Part shown: piece by piece, positions 19,275 to 28,964 of the stretch
Layout: every line of letters starts with the position of its first letter
Position numbering within the stretch: position 1 is the stretch's first letter
Assembly: GCF_004114375.1 (NCBI RefSeq)
Contig: NZ_CP034692.1
Span: forward strand, 1,426,001-1,490,000
Direction of reading: 5' to 3'
Origin: Halorubrum sp. BOL3-1
GTDB lineage: Archaea > Halobacteriota > Halobacteria > Halobacteriales > Haloferacaceae
DNA length: 64,000 bases
Position numbers and translations under genes: made by a program
Notes under the pieces: generated by a model
Told to the model about the DNA's origin: nothing
Databases searched by the model: none
What the model saw: the letters and a program-made list of their open reading frames with translations, nothing else

Positions 19275-20383
19275 CTCGTCCCCGCGACGGAAGCGACGGG
19301 ACTCCGATCCTCTCCGTGCGCGACCTCCGGACGCGAATCCGGACCGACGATGGGTGGCTCCACGCGGTCGACGGGGTGAGCTTCGACGTCGAACGGGGTG
19401 AGACGGTGTGTCTGGTCGGTGAGTCCGGCAGCGGCAAAAGCGTCACGTGCGAGTCGCTCACCGGTCTCGTCCCGCAGCCGCCGGCGGACGTGTCCTCCGA
19501 CGCCGTCGAGTTCGACGGGGGGTCCGTCTCCGACCGGTCGGAAGCGGAGCTGCGGTCGATCCGGGGGCGCCGAATCGCGCACGTGTTCCAGAACCCGCAG
19601 AGCGCGCTCGATCCGGTGTACACGGTCGGCAGACAGGTGACGGAGCCGATACGGATCCACGAGGACGTGAGCCGGTCGACGGCGGGAGACCGGGCGGTCG
19701 ACCTGCTGCGGCGGGTGGGCATCCCGCGCGCGAGCGAGCGTCTCGACAGCCATCCGCACGAGTTTTCGGGCGGGATGCAGCAGCGAATCGCCATCGCGGT
19801 CGCGTTGGCGGGGAACCCGGACCTGTTGATAGCCGACGAGCCGACGACCGCGGTGGACGTCACGGTTCAGGCGCGGCTGCTCGACCTGTTCCGGTCGATC
19901 GTCGGCGACGGGACGAGCGTGTTGCTCGTGACGCACGACCTGCGGGTCGTCGCCGCCGTCGCCGACCGCGTACTGGTCATGTACGGCGGGACGATAGTCG
20001 AGCGCGGCCCGGTCGAGTCGGTATTTTCCGCCCCGTCTCATCCGTACACGCAGGCGCTGTTCGACAGTTACGGGACGAGCGACGGGGCGTCGGTCGCGGA
20101 GCGGACCGCTCGCGGCGAGATACCGACGGACGGCTGTCGGTTCCGTGCGGAGTGCCCGCACGCGGTCGACGAGTGCGCTGGCGGCGCGCAGCCGGCGTTC
20201 CGCTCGGTCGACGGACCACCGGACCACGCGGCGTCGTGCGTCCATTACGGCCCGAACGGGGACCCGTCGCCGATCCGCGAAAACGCGACGTCGCCCGCCG
20301 ACAGCCGAGAGAGGAGATCGGAGCGTGCGCCGACGGACCCGTCCGCGACTTCGACCGCGGACACGGGGGATGAGCGGCGATGA
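19271..20383 (+). CDS. Peptide-type ABC transporter ATPase (DppD-like)
   Basis: A 370-residue ABC ATPase. Walker A is GESGSGKS (about 45), the Q-loop FQNPQSALDPVYTVG, the signature SGGMQQRIAIAVAL and Walker B LLIADEPTTAVDVTVQ, with the H-loop in VTHDLRVV. The oligopeptide/dipeptide C-terminal extension with a Cys cluster (GCRFRAECPHAVDEC and a later Cys) is present. It starts with GTG at 19271, translationally coupled to the permease before it and by an ATGA overlap to the ATPase after it. The C-terminal 40 residues are low-complexity. Confidence 0.85.
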   Translation: MTRPRDGSDGTPILSVRDLRTRIRTDDGWLHAVDGVSFDVERGETVCLVGESGSGKSVTCESLTGLVPQPPADVSSDAVEFDGGSVSDRSEAELRSIRGRRIAHVFQNPQSALDPVYTVGRQVTEPIRIHEDVSRSTAGDRAVDLLRRVGIPRASERLDSHPHEFSGGMQQRIAIAVALAGNPDLLIADEPTTAVDVTVQARLLDLFRSIVGDGTSVLLVTHDLRVVAAVADRVLVMYGGTIVERGPVESVFSAPSHPYTQALFDSYGTSDGASVAERTARGEIPTDGCRFRAECPHAVDECAGGAQPAFRSVDGPPDHAASCVHYGPNGDPSPIRENATSPADSRERRSERAPTDPSATSTADTGDERR

Positions 20384-21714
20384 GCGAGGACCTGATCTGT
20401 TCGGTCCGCGGTTTGGAGAAGCACTACCCGATCACCCGCGGACTGCTCCGACGGGAAGTCGGTCGCGTCCGCGCCGTCGACGGGGTGAGCTTCGATGTCG
20501 AGCGCGGAGAGGCCCTCGGGATCGTCGGAGAGTCGGGCAGCGGGAAGACGACGACGGCCCACACCGTCTTGGGGCTCGAAGCGCCGACGGCCGGCGAAGT
20601 CCGGTTCGACGGCGATCCGGTTTCGGAGCTGTCGGGAGACGAGCGCCGAGAGTTCCGCCGGCGCACGCAGCTGATCGTTCAGGACCCCAACGACGCCCTC
20701 GATCCGAGAATGACGATCGGGGAGGCGGTGGCCGAACCACTCCGGATCCACGGCCTCAACGGCGCCGAACGGCGGCGCGCGATCGTGGAAGACGTCCTCG
20801 AACGCGTCGGGCTGTCGGCGGACGACCTGAACCGATACCCACACGAGTTCTCCGGCGGCGAGAAACAGCGCATCTCGATCGCGCGGGCGCTCGTCGTCAG
20901 CCCCGACCTCATCGTCGCGGACGAACCGACGAGCGCGCTGGACGCGAGGGTCCGGTCCGAGATACTCGGCCTGCTGGACCGGATCCGCCGCGAGTTCGAC
21001 ATCGCCGTCCTGTTCATCAGCCACGACCTCGACGTCATCCGGCGGAACTGCGACCGGATCGCGGTCATGTACCTCGGTGAGACCGTCGAGCGGGGCGCGA
21101 CCGAGAGCGTGTTGGCGGAACCGGCACACCCGTACACGCGGGTATTGCTCTCGTCCGTCCCCTCTCTCGACCCGACGGACCGGGAACTGGGGCGTCCGCT
21201 GACGGACACGGTCCCGGACCCGAGCGATCCGCCCTCGGGCTGTCGGTTCCACCCGCGGTGTCCAGACGTGATCCCGCCGGACAACCTCTCGGTGTCCGAG
21301 GAGACCTGGCGAGCGATCGCGGGCTTCAGATTCTCCGTACAGGCGCGGGAGCTTCCGGAGAACGCGGTCGGCGGCGCCGATACGGAGCGCGCAGCGAGCG
21401 GCGACGCCGAGAGCCGCACGGCGGAGATCCGACGCGCCGTCGGTCTCGGGGAGGAAATCTCCGATACCGAGGCGGAGGCGGCGGTGGACGACGCGGCCGC
21501 GGAGCTCGCCGCCGGCGACGTCGACGCCGCGGACGAGATACTGGCCGCCGCCTTCGCCAGCGTCTGCGAACGCGAGACGCCGACCCCGGTCGGCCGACCG
21601 ATCGACGACGGGGCGGAACGGCGAACGGCGGGGGCCGTCAGCTGTCTCCGGCACAGCCGGGAAGGGGGTGCGGAGCCGGTTCGGCCGGACAGCGACGCCC
21701 GGGACGAGCGGTAG
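20380..21714 (+). CDS. Peptide-type ABC transporter ATPase (DppF-like)
   Basis: A 444-residue ATPase. It has Walker A GESGSGKTTT (about 50), FSGGEKQRISIARAL, Walker [17 protein letters not shown] and the family's Cys-rich tail PSGCRFHPRCPDVIP. Beyond the usual end near residue 320 it carries about 120 extra residues with a helical acidic segment (ETEAEAAVDDAAAELAAGDVDAADEIL) and further Cys residues (VCERET, VSCLRHS). The ATPase of the second cluster (22460-23788) has the same kind of tail. Last gene of the plus-strand unit; stop TAG. Confidence 0.85.
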   Translation: MSEDLICSVRGLEKHYPITRGLLRREVGRVRAVDGVSFDVERGEALGIVGESGSGKTTTAHTVLGLEAPTAGEVRFDGDPVSELSGDERREFRRRTQLIVQDPNDALDPRMTIGEAVAEPLRIHGLNGAERRRAIVEDVLERVGLSADDLNRYPHEFSGGEKQRISIARALVVSPDLIVADEPTSALDARVRSEILGLLDRIRREFDIAVLFISHDLDVIRRNCDRIAVMYLGETVERGATESVLAEPAHPYTRVLLSSVPSLDPTDRELGRPLTDTVPDPSDPPSGCRFHPRCPDVIPPDNLSVSEETWRAIAGFRFSVQARELPENAVGGADTERAASGDAESRTAEIRRAVGLGEEISDTEAEAAVDDAAAELAAGDVDAADEILAAAFASVCERETPTPVGRPIDDGAERRTAGAVSCLRHSREGGAEPVRPDSDARDER

Positions 21715-22459: not shown

Positions 22460-23780
<1,321 letters not shown>

Positions 23781-23788
<8 letters not shown>

Positions 23789-24857
23789 CGCGATCACCCT
23801 CGACGTGCTGCGCGGCCGCGCCGTCCGCCGGACCGGTCGTCTCGACGGAGTATGTGAGTCCCTGCGAGAGACCGTCCGTGTACTCGAGACAGGCCGCGGC
23901 GTGTTCCGTGTCGGAAGTGGCCTCCGAACCCGACTCGACGTCGGTGAGCGGCGGCTCCTTCCGCGTACACTTTTCCTCTGCGAACGGACAGCGCGGGTGG
24001 AAGCTACACCCGGAGGGGAGCTGAACGAGGTCGGGCATCACGCCGGGAATCGTCTGGAGCCGCTCCCGCTTGTCGTTGACGCGGGGGATCGAGCTCATGA
24101 GTCCGACCGTGTACGGGTGTTTGGGATCGTAGTAGAGCTCCTCGACCGGCGCCTTTTCGACCGGTTTCCCGGCGTACATTACCATGACGCGGTCACAGAC
24201 CTCAGCGATGACGCCGAGGTCGTGTGTGATGAGCTGGATCGCCGTGTCGAACTCGTCGGCCAGCTCCTCGAGCTCGTCGAGGATCTGCGCTTCGATCGTC
24301 ACGTCGAGCGCGGTCGTCGGCTCGTCCGCGACGATCAGGTCGGGGTCACACGACAGGGCCATCGCGATGATCGCCCGCTGTTGCATCCCGCCGGAGAACT
24401 CGTGCGGATAGTCGGAGAACCGCTCTTCGGCCTCCGGGATGCCGACGCGGTCGAGCAACTGAATCGTTCGTGCTTTCGCCTCCTTGGACGTGTAGTCCAA
24501 GTGGTGTTCGATCGCTTCCGCGATCTGACCGCCGACCGTGTACACCGGGTTGAGAGCCGTCTGCGCGTCCTGGAAGATCATCGAGACCTCGTTGCCGCGG
24601 ATCGAGCGGATCTCCGATTCGGACATCTCCAGCAGGTCCTGGCCTTTGAAGAGGATTTCGCCGCTCTCGATCTGGCCCGGGCTGTCGATCAGTCGAAGCA
24701 CGGAGAGCGCGGTGACGCTTTTGCCCGCTCCGCTCTCACCGACCACGCCGAACTTCTCGCCCCTCTCGATGCGGAACGAGAGGTTGTCGACGGCGGTCAC
24801 CACGCCCTCTTGCGTGTAGAATCGAACGGTGAGGTCTTTCACTTCGAGCAGCGCCAT
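23781..24857 (-). CDS. dppD: Peptide-type ABC transporter ATPase (DppD-like), second cluster
   Basis: A 358-residue ATPase: Walker [13 protein letters not shown] (about 37), Q-loop [15 protein letters not shown], signature [14 protein letters not shown], Walker [19 protein letters not shown] and H-loop [11 protein letters not shown]. The oligopeptide-family Cys motif [15 protein letters not shown] follows. It overlaps the permease gene before it by one base and the ATPase after it by 8 nt, so it is one tightly coupled operon. It powers peptide import together with the DppF-like subunit. Confidence 0.9.
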
Positions 24858-25909
24858 CAGTCCTCACCCCCGCGGCCGACACCCGTCTGCTGTGCGTCCA
24901 GTGCGTCGTTGATACCGTCACCTATCATGTTCATTGACATCACGAAGATGAAGATCGCCGATCCGGGGTACACGGTCGCCCACCACGGGATCTGTCCGCC
25001 CGGTCCCTGAATGAGCGTCGACCGCGTGGCGTTCAGCATCGTGCCCCACTCGGCCGAACTCGGGTCTAAGCCGAGTCCGAGGAAGCCGAGCGCGGCGACG
25101 CCGATGACGACGCTCCCGATGTTGAGCGACGCCAGCACGATGAGGGGCGGCATCGCGTTCGGAGCGATGTGTCTGAAGACCACCGAGCGGTCGCGCGCGC
25201 CGAGCGCTTTCGCGGCCATCACGTACTCGTTTTCCTTGATTTTCAGCACCTCCCCTCTCACCAGACGGCCGTATCCCGCCCAGCCGAAGAGGCTGAACGC
25301 TAAGACGAGCTGCCAGTAGCCGCCGCCGAGGATGGCGACGATGATGAGCGCCAGGATGAGACCGGGGAACGCGAAGATAGTGTCGACGATCCGCATCATC
25401 AGTTCGTCGACGTTACCGCCGTAGTACCCCGAGATGGACCCGTAGATCAGCCCGAACGACGCCGTGAGTCCGACGACGATGAATCCGATCGAGAGGCTGT
25501 ACCGGCCGCCGACGAGGAGCCGCGAGAACAGGTCGCGGCCGGAGCCGTCGACGCCCATCGGATACTGCCACGACGGCGGGTCGTACACGTTCACGCTCGA
25601 ATCGACCCCCAAGTACAGGATCGTCGTGGGGTCGTACGGGGCCAACGAGAAGGGCTGAACGACCATCCCGAACACTTCGATTGGACGCGCGAAGAGCGCA
25701 GCTAACACCATTACGACGACGATGACGAGCGCGCCCATCGCGGAGCGGTTCCGCTTGAACTTCTGGAAGCCGCGCCGCCAGCGACCGATCGTCTCGCCGC
25801 TCGATTCGTCAGTCCAGTCGGACATCGTCTCTCGGTCTCTGACGCGGTCCGAATCGAATCCGGAGACCCGGATTCGGCCGCGTTCGTCGTGCGTGTGTCG
25901 GTTAGTCAT
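24857..25909 (-). CDS. dppC: Peptide-type ABC transporter permease (DppC-like), second cluster
   Basis: A 350-residue permease. The PMGVDGSGRDLFSRLLVGGRYSLSIG entry motif (GxDxxGRDxxSR) is the DppC hallmark, and the coupling loop is AAKALGARDRSVVFRHIAPNA. About six membrane segments; ends MIGDGINDALD. An N-terminal cytoplasmic stretch of about 60 charged residues precedes the first helix. ATG 25909 overlaps the DppB stop by 8 nt; a longer start at 25951 would intrude further into the upstream gene. Confidence 0.9.
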   Translation of the reverse strand: MTNRHTHDERGRIRVSGFDSDRVRDRETMSDWTDESSGETIGRWRRGFQKFKRNRSAMGALVIVVVMVLAALFARPIEVFGMVVQPFSLAPYDPTTILYLGVDSSVNVYDPPSWQYPMGVDGSGRDLFSRLLVGGRYSLSIGFIVVGLTASFGLIYGSISGYYGGNVDELMMRIVDTIFAFPGLILALIIVAILGGGYWQLVLAFSLFGWAGYGRLVRGEVLKIKENEYVMAAKALGARDRSVVFRHIAPNAMPPLIVLASLNIGSVVIGVAALGFLGLGLDPSSAEWGTMLNATRSTLIQGPGGQIPWWATVYPGSAIFIFVMSMNMIGDGINDALDAQQTGVGRGGED

Positions 25910-26858
25910 ATCGGATCCTCGGATCAAGCGCCGCGTACACGATGTCGGCAACGAGATTCGCGAGAATGACGAAGAACCCGGTGAACAGGGTGATCGCCAT
26001 AACGACGTTGATCTCCCGCTGATTGATCGCGTCGATGAACTCCCGTCCGAGTCCCGGCCAGTTGAACACGACCTCCACGACCACCGAGCCGGCCACGATA
26101 GAGGCCGTGAGCGTCGCCGCGAGCGTGACGACCGAGATCAGGGAGTTCCGCAGTACGTGTTTGAGAATCACCGTCCGCTCGGGGAGTCCCTTCGCGCGGG
26201 CGGCGGTGACGTACTCCTTGTTCAGTTCCTCCGCCATCGAGGTCCGCATCACGCGCATGATGCTCGCCGCCGAGGCGGTCCCGATGGTGATACCTGGGAG
26301 AATCAGATACCACAGCATCTCCGGCGAGAGGAGAGACTGCCTCGAAGGCGCCAGCACCGGAAAGAGGCCCAGGTACAGCGAGAAGATCAGGATCAACATC
26401 AGTCCGAGCCAGAAGTTCGGGATCGAGATGCCGGACAGCGCGAGGAAGCGGCTGACGGTGTCGCCGAACTGGTCTTTGTTAACCGCCGCGTAGATCCCTG
26501 CCGGGATGGCGATGATGAGCGCGAACGCCCACCCGAAGAGACCGAGCGCGATCGTCTCCGGAAGCCGTCTCCACACGATGTCGGAGACCTCACGGCCGGT
26601 CTGGAGTTCCTGACCGAAGTCGCCGACGAGCACGTTCGAGATCCAGTCCAAGTACTGTTCCCAGACGGGGCCGGAAAGCCCCCAACGCTCGCGGAGCGCG
26701 GCCTCTTCGGCCGGGGTTACGTCCGGGTTTAACGCGACGAGTTGGGTAACCGGATCGCCGGGCGTCAGGTGGAACAGGCCGAACGTGATCACCGACACCC
26801 CGAACATGATGGGGATTATCGACAGCGTTCGTTTCAGTATGAAGCGTTGGAGGCTCAT
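25902..26858 (-). CDS. dppB: Peptide-type ABC transporter permease (DppB-like), second cluster
   Basis: A 318-residue permease with a typical DppB start (FILKRTLSIIPIMFGVSVITF, then HLTPGDPV), the GDFGQ motif (VGDFGQELQTG), the coupling loop ARAKGLPERTVILKHVLRNS and a C-terminal VADIVYAALDPRIRYD. Six membrane segments. It follows the binding-protein gene after 87 nt and overlaps the DppC gene. It forms the membrane channel with the DppC-like partner. Confidence 0.9.
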   Translation of the reverse strand: MSLQRFILKRTLSIIPIMFGVSVITFGLFHLTPGDPVTQLVALNPDVTPAEEAALRERWGLSGPVWEQYLDWISNVLVGDFGQELQTGREVSDIVWRRLPETIALGLFGWAFALIIAIPAGIYAAVNKDQFGDTVSRFLALSGISIPNFWLGLMLILIFSLYLGLFPVLAPSRQSLLSPEMLWYLILPGITIGTASAASIMRVMRTSMAEELNKEYVTAARAKGLPERTVILKHVLRNSLISVVTLAATLTASIVAGSVVVEVVFNWPGLGREFIDAINQREINVVMAITLFTGFFVILANLVADIVYAALDPRIRYD

Positions 26859-26945: not shown

Positions 26946-28964
26946 TCAGTTGTCCGCGGCGACCTGGTCGAGCAGCTCTTCCGCGCGTTCGATGTCGTAC
27001 TCGTTCGTCGGTCGAATCTCCTCTTCTAAGGCCTCGGCGTCGGCAGTCCCGCTCCCCTGTGCCAGCGCGGGAAGGTCCGTCCACGCCGGACGGGCGTAGC
27101 CGTTCAGCACGTTCTCGACGATCCGCTCGCGGGGGATCAGGTGGTTGATCGCCTTGCGGAGGCGCGTGTCGTCGAACGGCGCGACGTTGACCGGGTACTG
27201 GATGTACTCGTAACCGCCTGTCTCGATGCCGTAGACGAGGAAGTCCTCCGAGGAGTCGAAATCATCGAGCGTCGACGTGTTCAGTCCGTACGTGGAGTCG
27301 ATCTCCCCGTTCTGGAGCGCCCCGGATCGGGTGGAGTCGTCGGGGACGATTTCGACCTCGAAGCCGTCGATGACCGGACCGTCCGGGAAGTCGCCGGAGC
27401 CGTCGAACCAGCTGAACGCCTCGCTGACGCCCTTCTGTTCGGTCCAGTAGTCGTCGAACTTCGTGACTTCGTAGAACTGGGCGTCCTCGAACTCGGAGAA
27501 CTCGTAGGGGCCCGTACCGATGGGGGTGTTACCCTCGCGGGGATCGAGATTGCCCTTTTCGATCTCCGCGACCTGCGTGGAGTTGAGGATGAGCAGCCCG
27601 GGGAGCGAGCGCTCGGCCTCGGCGTCCGGAACCTGTGCGAACAGGTCGACGGTGTACTCGTCGACCTGAACCGCGGTCAGCAGCGAGTCGTACGTCTGCG
27701 GGGCAATCACGGAGTTCTCGGCGTACTCGTAGGTCGCGATCACGTCTTCCGCGGTGAGTTCGTCGCCGTTGTGGAACTCGACGCCCTCCTGGAGGTTGTA
27801 CCGGTACTGCATCCCGTAGGTGCCGTCCTCGACCGCCTCGGTGGCGTCGTCCGGGAGCAGGACGCGGACCTCGTCGTCCTCGGCGGGGTTGTCCTCCGGG
27901 TGCTGGACGATGACCTGCTCGTCCGTGTCTATCGCGCCCTCCTCGGTTGTCCCGACGGTCGACATGTAGTCCGCGTACGCGGTCCGTTCGACGCCCTGCG
28001 TATCGAGCAGCTCGTAGCTCTCGGCGAGCCACGGGTGGACGTTACCTTCCGCGTCGTTGGCGGTCAGCCCCTCGAACAGGAACCCCTGCGCCAGCGTCGA
28101 CGTCGTGTCGCTGCTGTGCGGGGGGTCGAACGACTCGATGTTCGCGCCGATCGCCATAGACAGCGTGCCGCCCTCGGTGAGGTCCGAAAGGTCGGAGTCG
28201 CCCGCGGCGTTGTCGCGGTCGACCCACATGACCTGCTCGTCCTGCGGCGCGAACATGTTGTAGCTGTACATCCCCTCCTGGAAAGGCCACATCTCGAAGC
28301 CGTGGATGTCCGTGTTGGAGACGGAGGTAGCAAGGTCGAAGTGCGTGATCGAGCTGTATCGCTCGTCCGCGAGGTAGTTCCAAACCTTGTCGTACCGCTC
28401 GCCGCGGAGTTCGGAATCACCGGCCACTTCGACGCCGTACCGGGCGTCGTCCATCAGGTCGTCTAGCTCTGGGTCGCTGATCCCGTTGAGGTTACAACAC
28501 GCGCCGATGTTACTCGAGTGGTGGAGCGCGTTACAGAAGCTCCCCGGGTTGAACGTCCCCGAGAGGCCGATAGCGGGGATATTCCCCCTGTCCTGGTACT
28601 CGGGGTCGAGGACGCGGCCGACGTACGTGTTCCATTCGAACGTCTCGACGGTGACGTTGAACATGTCGGTCTGCTCCATCGACTCCGCGATGAGCTCGAC
28701 CATCTGGAGCCGGTCGCTGTTGTCGGCGTTGACTTCCAGCTGGACGTCGAGGGGAAAGAGGTTTCCGTCGCCGCCGTCCCCGCCGTCCCCGCCGTCGCCA
28801 CCGTCTCCGTCGTCCCCGCCGTCCCCGCCGTCCCCGCCGTCCCCGCCGTCGGATTGGCCGCCACATCCGGCCAGACTGGCTGCTCCAGCCGCCCCGATGG
28901 TGGCGATAACGTTACGTCGATTTATTTTTTGACTGCTATCGGATACGTTGTGCCGACTTGGCAT
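26946..28964 (-). CDS. dppA: Dipeptide-type ABC substrate-binding lipoprotein, circularly permuted
   Basis: A 672-residue binding protein of solute-binding protein family 5. Residues 1-34 are a Tat-type lipoprotein signal (NRRNVIA, lipobox LAGC with Cys34), and 38-67 a Gly/Asp linker. Residues 68-255 then match what is normally the C-terminal third: LFPLDVQLEVNADNSDRLQM, VETFEWNTYVGRVL, GTFNPGSFCNALHHS and MWPFQEGMYSY. Residues 262-672 match the normal N-terminal two-thirds: GGTLSMAIGANIESFDPP, FLFEGLTANDAEGNVHPWL, YNLQEGVEFHNGDELTAEDV, IGTGPYEF, VPDDSTRSGALQNGEID and DTRLRKAINHLIPRERIV. The protein ends with IERAELLDQ-like helix ERAEELLDQVAADN, exactly where the family normally continues into the part found at residues 68 onward. 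Both junctions are in frame and clean. It heads the A-B-C-D-F operon with its own TATA box. Family and operon are firm; the permutation is read from segment order and memory of the family. Confidence 0.85.
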   Translation of the reverse strand: MPSRHNVSDSSQKINRRNVIATIGAAGAASLAGCGGQSDGGDGGDGGDGGDDGDGGDGGDGGDGGDGNLFPLDVQLEVNADNSDRLQMVELIAESMEQTDMFNVTVETFEWNTYVGRVLDPEYQDRGNIPAIGLSGTFNPGSFCNALHHSSNIGACCNLNGISDPELDDLMDDARYGVEVAGDSELRGERYDKVWNYLADERYSSITHFDLATSVSNTDIHGFEMWPFQEGMYSYNMFAPQDEQVMWVDRDNAAGDSDLSDLTEGGTLSMAIGANIESFDPPHSSDTTSTLAQGFLFEGLTANDAEGNVHPWLAESYELLDTQGVERTAYADYMSTVGTTEEGAIDTDEQVIVQHPEDNPAEDDEVRVLLPDDATEAVEDGTYGMQYRYNLQEGVEFHNGDELTAEDVIATYEYAENSVIAPQTYDSLLTAVQVDEYTVDLFAQVPDAEAERSLPGLLILNSTQVAEIEKGNLDPREGNTPIGTGPYEFSEFEDAQFYEVTKFDDYWTEQKGVSEAFSWFDGSGDFPDGPVIDGFEVEIVPDDSTRSGALQNGEIDSTYGLNTSTLDDFDSSEDFLVYGIETGGYEYIQYPVNVAPFDDTRLRKAINHLIPRERIVENVLNGYARPAWTDLPALAQGSGTADAEALEEEIRPTNEYDIERAEELLDQVAADN
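28764..28853 (-). repeat. Gly-Gly-Asp linker repeat in the binding protein
   Basis: About 90 bp of imperfect GGN-GGN-GAN triplets encode repeated GGD units between the lipobox Cys and the mature domain. Such linkers are common in haloarchaeal surface lipoproteins, and the repeat is prone to slippage and recombination. Confidence 0.9.

Follow-up and report, generated by a model that had tools for sequence, protein, structure and literature searches.

Circular permutation of a Dpp/Opp-type binding lipoprotein in Halorubrum sp. BOL3-1 and probable repeated switching of segment order in its family

Circular permutation is usually regarded as a rare, one-off event. In the window, as we call the whole 64,000-nucleotide stretch of the Halorubrum sp. 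BOL3-1 genome analysed here, a gene on the minus strand encodes a family 5 substrate-binding protein (SBP) whose chain does not run in the ordinary N-to-C order. Is this a genuine permutation in a functional protein, and how often has such a change occurred?

Segment order of the binding protein

The gene (26946..28964, minus strand) starts with ATG, encodes 672 residues and ends with a stop codon at 26946-26948. It was recognized as a circularly permuted SBP_bac_5 (PF00496) lipoprotein gene from phmmer, Pfam, a canonical profile and segment blastp. Reading of the sequence gives a signal peptide of the twin-arginine type with a lipobox at residues 1-34 (KINRRNVIATIGAAGAASLAGC; 28863..28964, minus), for which the Pfam TAT_signal score lies below its cut-off, followed by a Gly/Asp-rich linker (residues 35-69; 28758..28862, minus). 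Then comes the relocated block, identified by phmmer and the profile as the canonical C-terminal third (residues 70-250, profile ~386-538; 28215..28757, minus). It begins at F70 (FPLDVQLEVN) and shares 68% identity with the corresponding third of L089, a homologue of canonical order in genome G007. A new join of 11 residues (251-261, DNAAGDSDLSD; 28182..28214, minus) connects the old C-terminus to the old N-terminus, and a join homologous to it (..TDLSDLxEGGTL) is present in the majority of permuted operon-family members. The canonical N-terminal two thirds, assigned by Pfam, blastp and the profile, complete the chain (residues 262-672; 26949..28181, minus). This part contains an additional loop some 60 residues long (322-383; 27816..28001, minus), seen by phmmer against AppA and by segment blastp, and the loop is also the site of a second cut in a different homologue, L080. 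The chain terminates at the helix that directly precedes the relocated segment in ordinary relatives. A 441-residue open frame antisense to the gene (window 27141-28466, plus strand) probably results from the high G+C content.

The first-pass annotation had proposed that the C-terminal third precedes the N-terminal part, and all three types of search agreed with it. Against the solved structure of AppA (1xoc), phmmer aligned query residues 263-321 to 19-77, 376-629 to 71-310 and 58-227 to 348-506; since these stretches run out of order, the segments are swapped. Pfam PF00496 matched residues 311-667 to profile positions 4-275 with 192.2 bits (curated cut-off 32.4). The front half taken alone matched positions 287-340 with residues 64-124, so the reversed order expected from Pfam was recovered, albeit with a weak front match (E 0.034). 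Finally, a canonical profile built from 28 proteins of ordinary order, from haloarchaea and methanogens, was read along the open reading frame in the order 11-63 (signal), 386-538, 63-122, 123-251 and 248-379; this reading was made on L162, whose numbering plus 6 gives that of the ORF. As the signal peptide aligns to profile positions 11-63, it is still in front and only the body is rotated. The annotation had located the front block correctly but set its limits at residues 68-255, and it had estimated the inner join at about 8 residues, which is too short; its start of the N-terminal part at about residue 262 was accurate.

The protein thus consists of two collinear blocks in swapped order, and unpermuted homologues exist. 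Its old ends are fused, and its new ends were adjacent in the original chain, at a single point. This common cut falls at canonical profile 383|386, in a loop that connects a helix to a strand. When the permuted tail (EEViedhdle*) is joined to the permuted start (APFxVQLE), a canonical stretch such as EEVfddygieAPLEVTLE is rebuilt, indicating that nothing was lost or doubled at the cut. All sequence and structure matches were to family 5 (cluster C), and none to the cluster B (type I) fold. These data support a true circular permutation, with both joins in frame: the lipoprotein gene is intact, and so is the B-C-D-F operon that it heads.

The operon, its homologues and the predicted fold

Two Dpp/Opp-type permeases and two ATPases are genetically linked to the SBP gene on the same strand, confirming the complete operon noted at first reading. 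From ORF and homologue-locus comparison, these are a DppB-type permease (25902..26858, minus), a DppC-type permease (24857..25951, minus; longest ORF, with a true start that is probably internal), a DppD-type ATPase (23781..24857, minus) and a DppF-type ATPase (22460..23797, minus). Just past this DppF, a second DppF-type ATPase-like ORF lies on the opposite strand (window 20380-21714, plus).

Homologues of the operon family were gathered from family, order and GTDB contigs, giving 78 distinct members. Order was assigned by blastp with three segments: 40 of them share that of the window protein, 37 are ordinary and one has a third arrangement. The SBP-B-C-D-F operon is common to all three, as far as contigs reach, and in nearly all long loci the four genes B, C, D and F come after the SBP gene on the same strand, regardless of segment order. 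The loci that deviate are G144, where none was matched, G418 and G273, with only B and C, and those on contigs that end. Ordinary-order homologues were 57-68% identical over all segments; they include those of Halalkalicoccus and, within the window's own family, of G007, G004 and G005. The genes of G007, G004, G005, Halalkalicoccus paucihalophilus (L064) and Halocatena salina (L242) have the same B-C-D-F neighbours as the window gene but, unlike it, keep the ordinary N-to-C order.

Some permuted copies are found in other settings. In L113 (G418) and L114 (G273), a permuted SBP-B-C set lies head-on against an inverted paralogous operon, which in L113 is an ordinary SBP-B-C-D-F; the permuted copies have no D or F match of their own. 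In L153 (G144) the permuted gene is divergent (51%), and no match to BCDF occurs in the 12.6 kb around it; it may be an orphan or a copy in decay. Between Halorubrum orthologues, dN/dS of the mature part was approximately 0.19-0.27, corresponding to purifying selection. We assigned no substrate, because NCBIfam models of nickel and oligopeptide binders all scored far below their cut-offs. The function is likely to be unchanged: the protein would bind a small ligand, peptide-like or of another kind, and pass it to BCDF.

A structure prediction had been suggested as a check of the permutation. AlphaFold2, run with alignments of unaltered relatives, gave a confident model of the window protein (mean pLDDT 95.2, pTM 0.91), with the join at 88-96, and of L080 (mean pLDDT 93.7, pTM 0.90). 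Foldseek, which aligns in chain order, returned only family 5 structures, at TM ~0.5 for the window protein and ~0.7 for L080, values that should be expected for partial alignment of a rotated chain. No solved structure with a permuted family 5 order was found by sequence or by fold (Foldseek).

In E. coli DppA, domain I comprises residues 1-32, 183-260 and 479-507, domain II residues 33-182 and domain III residues 261-478. By sequence match, the common cut maps near DppA residue 340; the L080 cut lies near 50-58. We take these to be in domains III and II, respectively. The tether would therefore differ in position among the three forms: domain I in the ordinary one, domain III with the common cut and domain II in L080. 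Thus, we infer that the membrane anchor of the window protein is on domain III and that of its ordinary relatives on domain I, with the pocket kept.

Changes of order in the operon family and beyond

To compare the two orders, sequences were rotated to one common order prior to tree building. Forcing the 32 permuted rows of the SBP tree together made it worse by 90 log-likelihood units (p 0.00026), and the same constraint on a tree of the adjacent BCDF genes cost 110 units (p 0.00014). A single origin within the operon family was still rejected when the Halalkalicoccus-type genes were left out (p 4e-6), but no longer when the G007 gene was left out (p 0.16). G007 is ordinary in order and G162 permuted, and the two are sisters in the trees of the relocated third, the N-terminal part and BCDF. 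They share the operon and differ in segment order; 77 of 96 nucleotides of their signal peptides and 66 of 90 nucleotides of their upstream DNA are identical. A mosaic of two genes was considered as the source of the mixed tree and rejected, given that the own tree of each segment keeps G007 next to G162.

The direction of change in this pair was considered separately. The trees do not distinguish a gain from a reversal, since one origin within the operon family is not rejected once G007 is omitted. The permuted members of the operon family all have a similar join, and the connection between helix and third in G007 is two residues under the usual length. For these reasons, we lean towards a reversion of G007 from permuted to ordinary order, which such sequence features suggest rather than prove.

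L080 (G183; L080:2909-4909) displays a different arrangement, in which the lipobox is followed by the middle, the C-terminal third and then the N-terminal segment (ASFDPPYSNDTTSS...YADYM). According to segment blastp, its cut is within the extra loop. The gene, followed by B, C and D, comes from a single metagenome-assembled genome (MAG) that is 76% complete, and it lies among ordinary relatives in the SBP and BCDF trees, apart from the permuted group of the window. A search of its family and of 391 genomes from the class gave no further protein of this order.

The permuted order extends beyond this operon. In the genome of the window, three of seven SBP_bac_5 ORFs are permuted, all at the same point; the two outside the window are lipoproteins encoded at G000:C3:791796-793397 (L163, L167) and G000:C3:2238196-2239974 (L164). 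In 36 sampled haloarchaeal ORFs, the signal is followed by profile ~386-530 and then ~60-383. Non-halobacterial members of the phylum, including sampled methanogen relatives, gave nearly all ordinary full-length matches. One ORF of 789 residues from the methanogen phylum (L232; G504:C1:1817918-1823000) has SBP_bac_5 positions 149-353 before 28-133, a further unusual arrangement.

A permuted haloarchaeal query also gave single-piece, near full-length matches on alphaproteobacterial plasmids. Six alphaproteobacterial proteins (Nitratireductor, Ketogulonicigenium, Microvirga, Neorhizobium, Roseomonas and Maritalea) were permuted by profile order; Fusobacterium and Ensifer controls were ordinary. 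Genes for M28 family peptidases stand beside the permuted SBP operons of Natrialba, Ketogulonicigenium and Roseomonas (L235, L238, L243), and this common neighbour suggests transfer of such operons between Alphaproteobacteria and haloarchaea. In a broad family 5 tree, placing all permuted proteins in one clade was worse by 619 log-likelihood units (AU p = 1e-6), the tested groups having been named after part of the data had been seen. This tree requires nine order changes; as its deep nodes are weak and the tree search was quick, our claim is limited to more than one origin. Permuted family 5 proteins are thus a widespread class, found in haloarchaea and Alphaproteobacteria, and this class seems to have arisen repeatedly.

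Origin of the permuted order and known systems

Altogether, we consider it very probable that the window gene encodes the SBP lipoprotein of a working Dpp/Opp-type ABC importer, with a circularly permuted mature chain, and that order has switched several times in the family. In this protein, the C-terminal third lies straight after the lipobox linker, with the old ends fused by the 11-residue join; both orders share a predicted fold and an operon that is observed with each. Separate switches would account for the operon line of the window and for the large haloarchaeal and alphaproteobacterial group. Further ones would be needed between the sister operons of G007 and G162 (at least one) and, at its different cut, in L080.

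An assembly or annotation artefact can be dismissed. About 40 homologues from separate genomes carry the same order with both joins in frame, one- and two-contig assemblies among them, and the genome of the window holds two more permuted genes; this excludes misassembly, the objection raised with the first-pass annotation, and bears out its expectation of in-frame joins and of orthologues of the same order. It is very unlikely that the rearrangement, although real, produced a decaying or non-binding relic. The divergent L153 gene, with no BCDF match alongside, would fit such a relic, but the low dN/dS, intact lipobox, conserved operon and confident predicted fold argue against it. A single ancient permutation, spread by gene transfer and with nested ordinary members due to tree error, is improbable. 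It would explain why all common permuted forms are cut at the same profile position, why the inner joins of the operon family look homologous, why one origin survives the test when the G007 gene is omitted, and why haloarchaeal and alphaproteobacterial permuted proteins cluster together. Against this stand the rejected single clade of all permuted proteins, the differing orders of G007 and G162 despite their pairing in per-segment and BCDF trees, and the ordinary order of the outermost members of the operon family to which the window gene belongs.

Repeated switching being the preferred explanation, the likely route would keep the promoter and signal peptide while the C-terminal third moved inside the gene, either by a tandem duplication combined with deletions or as a copied segment. 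A more specific version, in which the third was inserted into the N-terminal linker and its old copy then lost, with no duplication of the whole gene, is a distinct possibility. Permuted and ordinary sisters have promoter and signal peptide in common and Gly-rich linkers flank the insertion point, whereas a two-copy intermediate, be it a doubled gene or a second copy of the third, was not found. Similarly, tblastn of four segments around permuted genes detected only known paralogues and no remnant of a tandem duplicate. Because insertion and duplication end in an identical topology, sequence alone cannot decide between them. More generally, it is close to an even call that family 5 order changes repeatedly, at one favoured loop and at least one other, with at least one reversal (G007) and an anchor that has come to lie on each domain. 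If so, the way in which the receptor hangs on the membrane would be an evolvable setting, with anchors on each of the three domains.

This large and common family offers both orders at about 60% identity in one operon and close pairs for comparison. Its natural proteins allow tests of how permutation arises, of its reversibility and of selection on anchor position versus folding order. The class is easily overlooked: Pfam matches on permuted proteins end at profile position 275-287, and Pfam, domain annotation and Foldseek (TM ~0.5) all read them as truncated proteins.

The first-pass annotation had taken a natural permutation in this protein class to be undescribed. This holds for family 5, for which no report was found in the open literature searched, but not for binding proteins generally. 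TpMglB-2 (Tp0684) of Treponema pallidum is also a naturally permuted, tethered ABC-importer binding protein, termed 'Type Ic / Cluster Bc' (PMC4990184). It binds D-glucose in vitro and closes on its ligand, so permutation does not abolish its function; relatives of it were found in Gram-positive bacteria by the same authors, who proposed a connection with tethering (PMC4990184). Unlike the window protein, TpMglB-2 is a cluster B sugar binder, with another fold class and another cut, and it was reported as one sub-class, whereas mixed orders among close homologues in one operon characterize the haloarchaeal case. What sets the present case apart is apparent repeated switching, both orders within one operon family, a second cut and occurrence in two domains of life. 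With DppA, OppA, AppA and NikA, the window protein shares homology of both blocks, the predicted fold, a two-permease, two-ATPase operon and a secreted lipoprotein; it differs from them in its C-terminal third placed first, its new ends, predicted to lie in domain III, and its extra loop of about 60 residues.
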